From Chthonomonadia bacterium (GTDB taxonomy: Bacteria; Armatimonadota; HRBIN16), in NCBI GenBank assembly GCA_013314755.1, contig JABUFA010000033.1, positions 1 through 43,048 on the forward strand: a stretch of DNA of 43,048 bases, read 5' to 3'. Made by a program: the position numbers and the translations under genes. The notes beneath the pieces are model-generated. The model saw only the letters and a program-made list of their open reading frames with translations. It was not told where the DNA came from and searched no databases. Below, in pieces: positions 16,208 through 20,472 of the stretch (position 1 is the first letter of the stretch; every line of letters starts with the position of its first letter).

Positions 16208-17953
16208 TCAATAAACCTTCCCGCCCATCTCTTCGCGCAAACGGGCGATGAAAGCGTCCAGCGTGGTTGCGCCCTGGTCACCGGCACTGCGCTTGCGCAC
16301 GGACACTGTGCCGTTTTGCATATCGCGGTCGCCCACCACCAGCATGTAGGGGATTTTCTGCAGTTCCGCCTCGCGCACCTTGAAGCCGGTCTTCTCGTTG
16401 CGGGAGTCCACCTCCACACGGAAGCCCTGCTCCTCCAGCCTCTGGCGAATCTGCTGGGCGTATGGCACATGCCGGTCGGCAATCGGCAGGACGATGACCT
16501 GCACGGGCGCCAGCCACAGCGGGAACGCGCCAGCGTAATGCTCGATCAGGATGCCAATCAGCCGCTCCAGCGAGCCGAACGGTGCACGGTGTATCATTAC
16601 CGGGCGATGCGGCTGACCATCGGGACCGATATACTCGAGGTCAAACCGTTCGGGCAGGGTATAATCCACCTGCACCGTGCCCAGCTGCCACATCCTGCCG
16701 AGGCAGTCTTTGGCGAGGAAGTCCAGCTTGGGTCCGTAGAAAGCGGCTTCCCCTTCTGCGACGGTGTACTGGATGCCCATGTGCTCCACCGCCTGCAAGA
16801 TAGCCCGCTGTGCCTGCTCCCATGCCTCATCGCTACCCACGTACTTGTCGCTCTTGGGGTCGCGCAAGCCCACACGCGCGTGGTACTCCTCCAGACCCAG
16901 CCTCTCGAAAACGTAGAGCACCAGCTCCACCACGTTCTTGAACTCATCTTCCAGCTGGTCGGGGGTGACGAAGATGTGCGAATCGTCCACCGTGAAGCCG
17001 CGCACGCGCGTCAATCCGCCCAGTTCACCGCTCTGTTCGTAGCGGTATACCGTGCCGAACTCCGCCAGCCTCAGAGGCAGGTCGCGGTAACTGCGCGTCT
17101 CCGATTTGTAAATCTGGATGTGGTGCGGGCAGTTCATCGGTTTGAGCATGTACTCCTCATTCTCCACCTGGATGGGATGGAACATGCTCTCCTGATACTT
17201 ATACCAGTGCCCGCTGGTCTTGTACAGGTCGAGTTTCCCGATGTGCGGCGTGACCACCGGCAGATAACCGCGCTTCAGCTGCTCCTTTTTCAGGAAGGTT
17301 TCCAGCGTGTCGCGCAGGATGGCTCCTTTGGGAAGCCACAGGGGCAGACCACTGCCCACCTCCGGGCTGATGAGGAAGATTCCCAGCTCCCTGCCCAGTT
17401 TGCGATGGTCGCGTCGCTTCGCCTCCTCCATGCGCTGCAGGTAATCCTGCAGTTCCTCTTCGGTGAACCATGCGGTACCGTAGAGCCGGGTCAGCATCTT
17501 ATTACGGGCGTCGCCGCGCCAGTATGCCCCCGCGATGGAGAGCAGTTTGAAGTGTTGGATCTGGCTAGTGCGCTCCACGTGGGGTCCGCGGCACAGGTCG
17601 ATGAAGTCGCCCTGCCGGTAGAAACTGATGGTCTCTTCTTCCGGGATTTCTTCGATAATCTCCACTTTGTAGTCCTGTCCCAGTTCGCGCACCAGTTTGA
17701 GCGCCTCGATGCGTGGCAGTTCGATGCGCTCGATGGGCAGGTCGCGCTGGGCAATCTCGCGCATCCGCTCCTCAATGCGGGGCAGGTCTTCGCCCGTTAT
17801 CGGCTGTGGGGGGTCTACATCGTAATAGAAGCCGTCTTCAATGGGCGGACCGATTGCCAGTTTCGTGCCCGGGAAGAGTTCACATACCGCCTGAGCCATC
17901 AGATGCGCCGTACTGTGGCGCAACGTTTCCAGGTCCGTCATCGTTTGAGCCAT
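16208..17953 (-). CDS. thrS: Threonyl-tRNA synthetase lacking the TGS domain
   Basis: The enzyme charges tRNA-Thr. The 581 residues begin almost directly with the editing (SAD) domain: HSTAH is at residues 13-17, and the editing-site DLCRGPHV lies further in. The class II core follows with the zinc-binding Cys of MLKPMNCPHH, FGTVYRYEQSGELGGLTRVRG and HRAPFGSLERL, then the anticodon-binding domain. Bacterial ThrRS is usually about 640 residues because of an N-terminal TGS domain; it is missing here. AAGGAGC lies eight bases before the ATG, and an extended -10 box at 18009-18014 leaves no room for a longer protein. The short form is therefore real, not a mis-called start. Confidence 0.96.
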   Translation of the reverse strand: MAQTMTDLETLRHSTAHLMAQAVCELFPGTKLAIGPPIEDGFYYDVDPPQPITGEDLPRIEERMREIAQRDLPIERIELPRIEALKLVRELGQDYKVEIIEEIPEEETISFYRQGDFIDLCRGPHVERTSQIQHFKLLSIAGAYWRGDARNKMLTRLYGTAWFTEEELQDYLQRMEEAKRRDHRKLGRELGIFLISPEVGSGLPLWLPKGAILRDTLETFLKKEQLKRGYLPVVTPHIGKLDLYKTSGHWYKYQESMFHPIQVENEEYMLKPMNCPHHIQIYKSETRSYRDLPLRLAEFGTVYRYEQSGELGGLTRVRGFTVDDSHIFVTPDQLEDEFKNVVELVLYVFERLGLEEYHARVGLRDPKSDKYVGSDEAWEQAQRAILQAVEHMGIQYTVAEGEAAFYGPKLDFLAKDCLGRMWQLGTVQVDYTLPERFDLEYIGPDGQPHRPVMIHRAPFGSLERLIGILIEHYAGAFPLWLAPVQVIVLPIADRHVPYAQQIRQRLEEQGFRVEVDSRNEKTGFKVREAELQKIPYMLVVGDRDMQNGTVSVRKRSAGDQGATTLDAFIARLREEMGGKVY

Positions 17954-18119: not shown

Positions 18120-19655
18120 ATGAGGATTTCTCTGCAGTCAGCGGTCAGGTGTCCGGTATGCCAAGAGGACGTTGAGGGCAATCTAGGAAAGCACATCCAG
18201 CAGGTACACGGTGAGCAGGCGTATACCAGAGCAGTACTGGACGCCAGGCAGGCTGGCATGTCAGATGCCGAAATTGGAGCGCGTTTCGGGATCACGCTCA
18301 AACAGCTGGAGCGGCTCGTGTTACAAGCGCACGGCATTAACGTTTCCCCACTCCCCCAGCAGGCGCAAGTCAAATCGTGGTTTCCCAAAGATTTTAAGCC
18401 AGAGACAACGACGGTCTGGAGCTACAAACAGCGAGGTAATTGGGCAACACACAACGGCAGGTATCGCGGGAACTGGTCCCCCTATATTCCGCGCAACCTG
18501 ATCCTGCGATACAGCCAGCCCGGCGAGGTCGTGCTGGATCCCTTCGTGGGAGGAGGTACCACGGCGGTAGAAGCCAAACTGCTGGGGCGCAAATGCATAG
18601 CGGTAGACGTCAACCCGGCGTGCGTGGAGTTAACCCGACAGAGCCTGCGGTTTAATCCGCCCAAAACGCTTTTCAGTGAACTTCCCCTCTACGAGCCAAT
18701 GGTTCAGGTCGGGGATGCCAGGAACCTTGAGAGCATCGCCAGCGATAGCATTGACCTCATCTGTGCACATCCCCCCTATGCTGGCATTATTGAGTACAGC
18801 CCGCAGATAGAGGGCGACTTATCGCAGCTTGGGGTAGACGAGTACGTGCACCAGATGCAGATGGTAGCGGAGGAGTGTTACAGAGTGCTGAAACCGGGGC
18901 GATACTGCGCCGTGCTTATCGGTGATACCAGAAAGCACAAGCACGTAGTGCCGATCGGCTTTCGCGTGATTGATGCCTTCCTGCGCGCCGGGTTTCGCCT
19001 GAAGGAACTGGTCATCAAGAGACAGCACAACTGCAAAACCACAGGGTTCTGGAGAGAGAGGAGTATCCAGCACAACTTTCTTCTGTTAGCACACGAGTAT
19101 CTGCCCGTCTTCGAAAAACCTGCGGATGTTGATCTTGCCGGGGAGGCGCAAACACTATTCGGTTTCTCGCGGGTCCAATCCCTCGATTCAGCGCCTGCCA
19201 CAGAAGACATGGAGACTACCACTGTATGGGTGCTGCCATCTGAGGGATTCGAGAGGCACATCGCTTCCAACGTAACGAGCCGGTATGGTACGGACATTCT
19301 GTTTGTACAAGCCGAACTGCGCAATATCGCCGCAAACCGAATAACAGGTGTGGACAACTCTGTGCGGGACATTGCGGAAACTGTAGATGCATGGCTATCT
19401 CGTCCTGAACACGGAAAATTCGTTGTCATCCAAACAAAAGATGTCCGAACGGGCAGATATCTGTTACCCATGGGCAAGATACTGACCGATGCATTCCAGC
19501 ACGATAAACGCCTGTGGCTCAAGGAGATCGTCATTGCGGTACCTGATAATCCAGCGCTACCTGCTGACGAATCACCAGATAATCTGGCTATTGTCCACAA
19601 GTACATTCTGGTTTACGAGGTGAGAGATGATGAGAAAGATTATCGCATTCGTTAA
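18120..19655 (+). CDS. DNA methyltransferase with N-terminal zinc finger and degenerate second half
   Basis: The 511-residue protein starts with a C2H2-type finger (Cys11, Cys14, His25, His30), followed by a helix-turn-helix-like MSDAEIGARFGITLKQLE. A complete amino-methyltransferase core comes next: TTTVW (96-100), the SAM-binding DPFVGGGTT (140-148) and the catalytic-loop HPPY (217-220), where His replaces the usual Asp/Asn/Ser. Residues 365-511 repeat part of this layout: TTTVW, then a G-x-F...D-V-R...LPMG...DAF...LKEIVI tail, without the SAM and catalytic motifs. It probably methylates adenine-N6 or cytosine-N4. The ATG at 18120 has GGAG six bases upstream; an ATG at 18114 abuts that site. 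The next gene overlaps its end. Confidence 0.85.
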   Translation: MRISLQSAVRCPVCQEDVEGNLGKHIQQVHGEQAYTRAVLDARQAGMSDAEIGARFGITLKQLERLVLQAHGINVSPLPQQAQVKSWFPKDFKPETTTVWSYKQRGNWATHNGRYRGNWSPYIPRNLILRYSQPGEVVLDPFVGGGTTAVEAKLLGRKCIAVDVNPACVELTRQSLRFNPPKTLFSELPLYEPMVQVGDARNLESIASDSIDLICAHPPYAGIIEYSPQIEGDLSQLGVDEYVHQMQMVAEECYRVLKPGRYCAVLIGDTRKHKHVVPIGFRVIDAFLRAGFRLKELVIKRQHNCKTTGFWRERSIQHNFLLLAHEYLPVFEKPADVDLAGEAQTLFGFSRVQSLDSAPATEDMETTTVWVLPSEGFERHIASNVTSRYGTDILFVQAELRNIAANRITGVDNSVRDIAETVDAWLSRPEHGKFVVIQTKDVRTGRYLLPMGKILTDAFQHDKRLWLKEIVIAVPDNPALPADESPDNLAIVHKYILVYEVRDDEKDYRIR

Positions 19656-20181
19656 AGCTATCCATTACCACATCTACTGCTCGTACAGACTCTGGCAATT
19701 TAGACGTAAACTCGTAGATGACGTTATTTACACCACAGAAAGAAATGTCAGAATATGCGTTTACCCTGGCAAGAAAACGCAATCTCCCTTCGATTTTATT
19801 GTCAGATATACGGAGTCCGGCAAACGCGAGCGCACACCCAAACATGTTCACCTGATTGTAGAGATGTATGTGAAACACGCTTTCAATCCGGAGCTAACCA
19901 TGAAGCTGCGAGACCATATACTGACCATGCTCGATAACATCCATCCTGTCAATACGTTCCCGCCCCAACTGCAATATTTCCGCCCCGAGCACATAGAGGA
20001 TTTCCGAGAACTGGATCATGTGGGCGAGTTTACTGTAGAGTTCTTGCTCGTCGTTAGTGAATTGATAGGAATACAGGAGAAGACAAACTACCCGAAAGGC
20101 TCGCTTACCCAAAGCCTGTACGCAGACTTCGGCGTTAAAGACCGCTTTTCAGTGATACAAAAAGCTGTATGGAGAGGATGA
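19627..20181 (+). CDS. Unknown protein overlapping the methyltransferase gene; candidate cognate partner
   Basis: This 184-residue protein starts inside the methyltransferase gene (overlap 29 bases) with GAGG six bases before the ATG at 19627; an ATG at 19630 is an alternative. It has a basic, aromatic N-terminal helix and a central RTPKHVHLIVEMYVK segment. Alternating strands and helices follow; there is no signal peptide or membrane segment. I cannot see a clear PD-(D/E)xK or HNH nuclease motif. Context suggests a restriction enzyme, a specificity subunit or another partner, but this is inference. DNA here is AT-rich: 19681-19800 is 39% GC by hand count, against about 72% at 14701-14760, which suggests recent transfer. 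Confidence 0.7.
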   Translation: MMRKIIAFVKAIHYHIYCSYRLWQFRRKLVDDVIYTTERNVRICVYPGKKTQSPFDFIVRYTESGKRERTPKHVHLIVEMYVKHAFNPELTMKLRDHILTMLDNIHPVNTFPPQLQYFRPEHIEDFRELDHVGEFTVEFLLVVSELIGIQEKTNYPKGSLTQSLYADFGVKDRFSVIQKAVWRG

Positions 20182-20397: not shown

Positions 20398-20472
20398 GGG
20401 CCCGTAGCTCAAAGGCAGAGCGGCCGGCTCATAACTGGTTGGTTGCAGGTTCGAGTCCTGCCGGGCCCACCA
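20398..20472 (+). tRNA. tRNA with CAU anticodon (Met, or Ile2 if modified)
   Basis: All arms fold: acceptor GGGCCCG with CGGGCCC (20398-20404 and 20462-20468), D arm GCTC/GAGC, anticodon stem GCCGG/CTGGT with loop CTCATAA (CAT at 20430-20432), and T arm GCAGG-TTCGAGT-CCTGC. Discriminator A20469 precedes an encoded CCA. The acceptor stem starts with a paired G1-C72, so it is not an initiator. C4-G69 and C5-G68 match features used by TilS to recognise tRNA-Ile2 in E. coli, so the tRNA could read AUA after lysidine modification. Elongator Met remains possible. Confidence 0.93.

Follow-up and report, generated by a model that had tools for sequence, protein, structure and literature searches.

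A small methyltransferase partner protein of a Chthonomonadia bacterium as a candidate restriction arm

Restriction enzymes fall into few folds. Type II restriction-modification (R-M) systems with a DpnII/MboI-like enzyme are the described systems closest to the locus reported here. They share its type of DNA methyltransferase (MTase; 85-87% identical core, short form), their restriction gene likewise stands next to or overlaps the MTase gene, and their distribution is also patchy and mobile. Unlike in these systems, the restriction slot here holds a 184-residue protein (the partner) without a PD-(D/E)xK profile match. The HALFPIPE restriction glycosylases R.PabI and R.CcoLI show that a restriction enzyme with an unrelated fold can be discovered by way of the MTase next to it; R.PabI was recognised by co-mobility with an MTase (PMC10273834), and this criterion also counts here for a restriction arm. 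HARE-HTH plus FEVE nuclease-like proteins, the third comparison, belong to another protein family than the partner, and their solitary copies suggest modification-dependent action, HARE-HTH having been proposed to read modified bases (PMC10853773).

The partner is encoded in a window of 43,048 nucleotides, which is the whole stretch of DNA analysed (Chthonomonadia bacterium, contig JABUFA010000033.1). In our reading of the sequences, to which we give a probability of roughly 0.55, it would act as the restriction arm in a compact and mobile R-M unit resembling type II systems. A dedicated DNA MTase was found (PF01555, PADLOC MTase_II), and pairing and exclusion were seen for the second gene, whose product is a putative enzyme. 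By likeness the unit may be placed with type II R-M systems and may work as they do, with cleavage putative. The MTase would methylate its target in host DNA, and the partner would attack the same target when it is unmethylated, using a candidate active site built around D56, H73, K83, and E151; either phosphodiester cleavage or base excision would be allowed.

The two-gene island and its site in the genus

The MTase belongs to the N6_N4_Mtase family; it scores 98.1 bits against PF01555 (gathering cut-off 26.7) and matches PADLOC MTase_II PDLC03376 at 1.2e-86. Its N-terminus carries a zinc-finger-like/HTH region, motif I precedes the HPPY motif (motif IV-like) in alignment A2, and the C-terminus holds a degenerate second MTase-like lobe (Table 1). 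From family knowledge we take DPFVGGGTT to be MTase motif I, involved in SAM binding, and HPPY is presumably the catalytic motif. A literature search on HPPY, of limited coverage and no proof of absence in print, gave nothing relevant. Motifs of the catalytic part (ETTTVW...HKYILVYE) recur in the C-terminal lobe (about 19206-19634), which resembles an inactive second MTase half.

Table 1. Positions of the two genes, their main motifs, and the island boundaries in the window.
Feature	Position	Strand	Basis
thrS, one boundary of the two-gene island	16208-17953	minus	Named from its sequence
DNA MTase, N6_N4_Mtase family, 513 aa	18114..19655	+	PF01555 and PADLOC
Possible C2H2 zinc finger (CPVC...H....H), MTase N-terminus	18150..18209	+	Sequence read; weak Pfam match (zf-Di19, E 0.041)
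MTase motif I (DPFVGGGTT)	18537..18563	+	Alignment A2
HPPY motif of MTase	18768..18779	+	H219, P220, P221, and Y222 invariant in 9/9 rows of A2
Ribosome-binding site GAGGTGAG of the partner gene, within the MTase gene	19617..19624	+	Sequence read
Gene of the partner (184 aa; subfamily A of the undescribed superfamily), a candidate restriction arm	19627..20181	+	ATG start
Codon of D56	19792..19794	+	Conserved in 40/41 rows
Core segment RTPKHVHLIVEMYVK, residues 69-83, with H73, H75, and K83	19831..19875	+	Alignment rows
Codon of E151	20077..20079	+	Conserved in 41/43 rows
tRNA-Met, other boundary of the island	20398..20472	+	Same site in related species

A preliminary description of this DNA had reported a 184-residue gene with its own ribosome site and a 29-base overlap with the MTase gene, and each of these details was confirmed exactly; GAGGTGAG ends two bases before the partner ATG. 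The same description considered the two genes tightly locked together. Coupling, along with constant pairing in cells, is supported, and the overlap itself is ordinary operon packing and nothing special. The commonest junction in relatives is a 4-base ATGA overlap (10 loci among those examined), and the overlap is longer in the window because its MTase extends a few codons further. Since translation of the partner starts inside the MTase gene, its production should be confined to cells that produce the MTase, and by this arrangement the toxic arm would be produced only alongside the protective MTase.

The window genome has a single copy of the partner, and other genera and phyla contain relatives with 60-72% identity. 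Compared with its G009 relative, the window copy differs at a proportion of 0.19 of non-synonymous sites and 0.91 of synonymous sites (dS saturated), and dN/dS was about 0.05-0.12 for less diverged pairs of relatives. The open reading frame is thus a real gene, since it is conserved across genera and phyla with low dN/dS; a chance frame or overlapping-frame artefact was ruled out on these grounds.

Only three of the 10 genomes of the window genus carry the partner, all at one site between thrS and tRNA-Met. The pair at this site is intact in genome G009; in G001 the MTase is accompanied by a broken partner, and in G008 the start of the MTase is visible at a contig end. In G002 and G005, two sister species, a solitary gene for a HARE-HTH plus FEVE nuclease-like protein stands at the site instead (L190:2143-2898 and L192:3438-4193). 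It evolves under purifying selection (dN/dS 0.06), and the product of L192:3447-4190 scores 26.1 bits against HARE-HTH PF05066 (gathering cut-off 25.9). Because HARE-HTH has been proposed to recognise modified bases (PMC10853773), this lone gene may be modification-dependent and not a cognate enzyme. Loci L202-L205, elsewhere in the genus, contain solitary relatives that are more distant. We read the thrS/tRNA-Met site as a probable small hotspot of defence genes.

Site frequencies were counted in stretches of 169-400 kb from seven species of the genus (G000, G009, G001, G002, G005, G003, G004). Two carriers had observed/expected ratios for GATC of 0.19 and 0.18, the species with the broken partner 0.22, a species without the pair 0.20, and the others 0.25, 0.30, and 0.41; carriers are not cleanly separated. 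In all seven species GGCC (0.06-0.13) and GATC (0.18-0.41) are strikingly rare, as if long restriction pressure had acted on the genus.

Pairing with methyltransferases and one-sided decay in cells

Searches with the partner gave 41 distinct cellular loci, in which pairing was examined. All 28 intact partners stand beside a DNA MTase, which was seen complete in 22 and runs off the end of the stretch in six. The HPPY type of MTase is present at 25 of the 28 loci, neighbouring the partner in 24 and lying in the same operon in L182; three loci (L137, L140, L225) have one further open reading frame between the two genes. Only other DNA MTase families were seen in the stretches examined of L142, L177, and L179. 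The same two-gene unit was found across phyla.

The 13 broken partners comprise five with an intact MTase (L009, L187, L176, L224, L227), five with a broken or absent MTase, and three at contig ends (Fisher's exact test, 28/0 vs. 5/5, p = 0.0005). The reverse, an intact partner with a broken MTase, was never seen among the 41 loci. Locus L149, which came from the MTase search, is a sixth with a broken partner and an intact MTase. Sign tests for this one-sided decay gave 0.031 (five to zero) and 0.016 (six to zero); counts are small, and whole loci can decay too.

Several loci have unusual forms of the partner. Locus L151 encodes two paralogues. A gene at L142:629-1405 (minus strand) fuses tandem copies of the partner domain in a DpnII-type operon; the first copy lacks the core motif, which would fit a protein acting as a dimer. 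Loci L003, L004, L005, L006, and L139 have partners whose truncation point is roughly shared, immediately before the (R)EPxKRERTP stretch, and D56 is missing from them; pairwise dN/dS among the truncated partners of L003-L006 is still about 0.05-0.12 where computable. A small cysteine-rich (zinc-ribbon-like) frame lies between MTase and partner at L225:2043-2243, and similar frames are found upstream of the partner in L003 and L005.

Exchange with type II restriction enzymes

In one phylum the MTase was present in 23 of 147 genomes. The partner, sought with a narrower profile (A3), was present in 12 of the 147, eight of which are among the 23 with the MTase. At the 23 MTase loci, most of which reach only about 1.5 kb past the MTase, we searched for the partner family and for restriction enzymes (relatives of the L162, L142, or L150 enzymes or of the HARE-HTH protein). 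Twelve loci carry the partner family, nine a restriction enzyme of DpnII-like or L150 type, one both, and three neither (Fisher's exact test, p = 0.0028). The frameshifted partner of L149 was counted by hand, and p is 0.0094 without it; collapsing two pairs of sister genomes gave p = 0.020. PADLOC identified type II restriction enzymes (REase_II) in L150, L142, L160, L162, and L027, a family that we take to be DpnII-like, and the other restriction-enzyme calls rest on phmmer matches to PADLOC-identified proteins.

The occupants of the slot behind the MTase are interleaved in the MTase tree. The MTase cores of L173 (subfamily A partner) and L150 (restriction enzyme) are 89% identical, and those of L008 (subfamily B partner) and L162 (DpnII-like enzyme) are 85% identical. 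The near exclusion, the interleaving behind near-identical MTases, and the divergence pattern given below together indicate that the partner is exchanged, that the MTase apparently works without it, and that the slot is a restriction slot. The partner had been suspected to be either a restriction nuclease or a control protein; near mutual exclusion with type II enzymes favours the former, with nuclease activity still putative. At L155:1459-2796 a 446-residue protein without assignment fills the slot behind such an MTase and is another candidate restriction arm.

These loci also bear on whether the partner is an obligate subunit of the MTase, conferring specificity or activity. Translational coupling would fit a subunit, as would the correlated divergence of MTase and partner within subfamily A (Mantel r = 0.854, p = 0.0002, n = 8), but the correlation is lost across subfamilies (r = 0.133, p = 0.11, n = 16). 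Moreover, no partner was detectable at 11 of the 23 MTase loci, and five genomes with the MTase and a restriction enzyme (G138, G139, G151, G256, G257) are outside the 12 partner-positive genomes. We consider a subunit very improbable.

A stronger rival is an accessory or regulatory R-M protein that controls the timing or extent of modification or restriction by binding the MTase, its DNA site, or the product; the nuclease, where present, would be a separate, variable gene. In three loci a partner relative and a DpnII-like enzyme are both present: the relative belongs to subfamily B in L142, to subfamily E in L160, and to subfamily F in L182, whose enzyme was judged from sequence only. These dual loci and the paralogues of L151 count for such a protein and against a restriction arm, and pairing with several MTase types would also suit an accessory role. 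In L003 and L005 a HARE-HTH nuclease-like gene separates MTase and partner remnants, and in L006 one adjoins the partner remnant; these genes were likewise counted against a restriction arm. However, an accessory protein would be expected to accompany complete systems, not to replace the nuclease, and because of the near exclusion among the 23 genomes, behind MTases that are 85-89% identical, we lowered our estimate of this explanation and regard it as doubtful.

The partner superfamily and its phage relatives

Searches of the partner against Pfam, PADLOC, NCBIfam, and PHROGs profiles gave no match up to E 10, and the family is undescribed in these libraries. This agrees with the initial impression of a protein of no nameable family and without a standard nuclease motif, because nuclease profiles, including PD-(D/E)xK, HNH, GIY-YIG, and PLD, are among those that gave no match. 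Helix-turn-helix profiles in the four libraries also gave no match; controller (C) proteins of R-M systems are helix-turn-helix proteins. The best PDB sequence match, a chloramphenicol acetyltransferase (E 0.0078), was not reproduced with profiles and was rejected. Among plasmids and named phages there was no match for the window protein or subfamily B, nor among named phages for the L017 phage protein; two weak rows from Synechococcus phage S-WAM1 (E 0.7) were taken as noise. Nothing relevant on such a partner was found in the literature searched, which does not prove absence in print.

A scan of 84,980 species genomes yielded 10 partner loci, from a planctomycete, KSB1, Dehalococcoidia, Cloacimonadota, Aerophobetes, Aminicenantes, Micrarchaeota, Nanoarchaeota, and two unclassified bacteria. 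Whole-genome searches found matches in 5 of 101 relatives, in the 12 of 147 genomes given above, and in 5 of 301, 3 of 124, and 4 of 396 genomes; within the phylum of the window, 11 of 291 genomes matched. The superfamily ranges over diverse bacteria, archaea, and large phages, and is divided into subfamilies A (window), B, C, E, F, G, and phage D. Profile comparisons linked A with D (3e-25), A with C (8e-8), A with F (7e-9), C with F (2e-7), and C with E (6e-10), the control MTase profile giving E 0.13; subfamily B was aligned with A from the outset. The only link to subfamily G is one profile match (E 1e-10), and the evidence for including a Streptomyces phage protein is weaker still. The best fold match in BFVD was a protein of Streptomyces phage BillNye (E 0.03); a 198-residue gene of that protein's length has the D, H, and E pattern, yet its hhalign E is only 0.02.

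Besides profile-profile similarity, members share a D-[FYI]..V motif, H73, K83, and E151. The alignment of 43 rows spans seven subfamilies and a phage outlier, and RTPKHVHLIVEMYVK, already suspected to be the conserved core, is its most conserved segment (H73 in 43/43 rows, K83 in 42/43, P71 in 39/43, H75 in 36/43). This near-invariant D/H/K/E pattern looks catalytic, which argues against an accessory protein, and the superfamily is probably a new enzyme family.

Structure predictions were confident for the window protein (pLDDT 89.3, pTM 0.80) and a phage member (pLDDT 93.3, pTM 0.89). Both models have a few predicted strands followed by a helical domain, with H73 and K83 placed on the first helix after the strands. 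Foldseek found nothing in the PDB at E 0.001 or better for either model (best E 1.4 and 1.5), and the best VIA-align Z scores, 3.6 and 4.2, are at noise level. Between the partner and R.PabI or R.CcoLI no sequence similarity was detected, and the fold comparison with R.CcoLI (Z 3.6, rmsd 3.9, 91 residues aligned) is tied with unrelated rows at noise level. Thus, neither profiles nor fold comparisons linked the partner to PD-(D/E)xK, HNH, GIY-YIG, PLD, or any other listed nuclease family above noise. A relation may still exist, and the missing match was counted against a restriction arm.

Relatives of the partner are encoded in 195 stretches of viral contigs, 80 of which were kept. An MTase was detected immediately beside the gene in three of 53 distinct phage loci (L053, L057, L079), although some may be missed because detection used eight query MTases. 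Constant pairing with an MTase, which had been proposed as a mark of a functional unit, therefore holds for intact cellular copies, although not with one MTase type, and does not extend to the phage loci, which in part match what the preliminary description had named as refuting its proposal. Gene orders vary, with redox, sigma-factor, or virion-like genes (names judged from sequence) beside the partner relative. In one phage lineage (L017, L039, L041, L044, L054, L102) it follows thioredoxin/glutaredoxin-like genes, and the first five of these have a gene for a D12-type DNA MTase no more than about 6 kb away. Phage subfamily D (e.g., L057) is homologous to the window partner by profile and has the same key residues, but it mostly lacks an adjacent MTase and has no N-terminal helix; the L057 protein is acidic (pI 6.2), whereas the window partner has a pI of 9.3.

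The phage copies, mostly without an adjacent MTase, count against a restriction arm and would suit an accessory protein. Their number and varied gene orders could also point to an enzyme of large phages, used in DNA metabolism or host takeover, that some R-M loci captured as cargo. Cellular copies are tied to MTase loci and exchanged with restriction enzymes, and we think such an origin unlikely. If the partner is instead a restriction arm, a bolder proposal, which we offer tentatively as a possibility, is that the superfamily would form a class of restriction enzymes with a new structure, a D/H/K/E site, and no relation to PD-(D/E)xK, HNH, GIY-YIG, PLD, or HALFPIPE, serving as the restriction arm of minimal two-gene systems in cells and used by large phages against host or rival DNA.

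Because it swaps with DpnII-type enzymes behind near-identical MTases without matching any known nuclease profile, the family is a candidate, open to direct testing, for a further class of restriction enzyme. By the same token, the orphan label that many MTases now bear may be wrong. Through its members in large phages, the family would connect R-M restriction arms with phage DNA warfare, and the partner may represent a novel type of bacterial weapon against viruses, one also carried by large phages.
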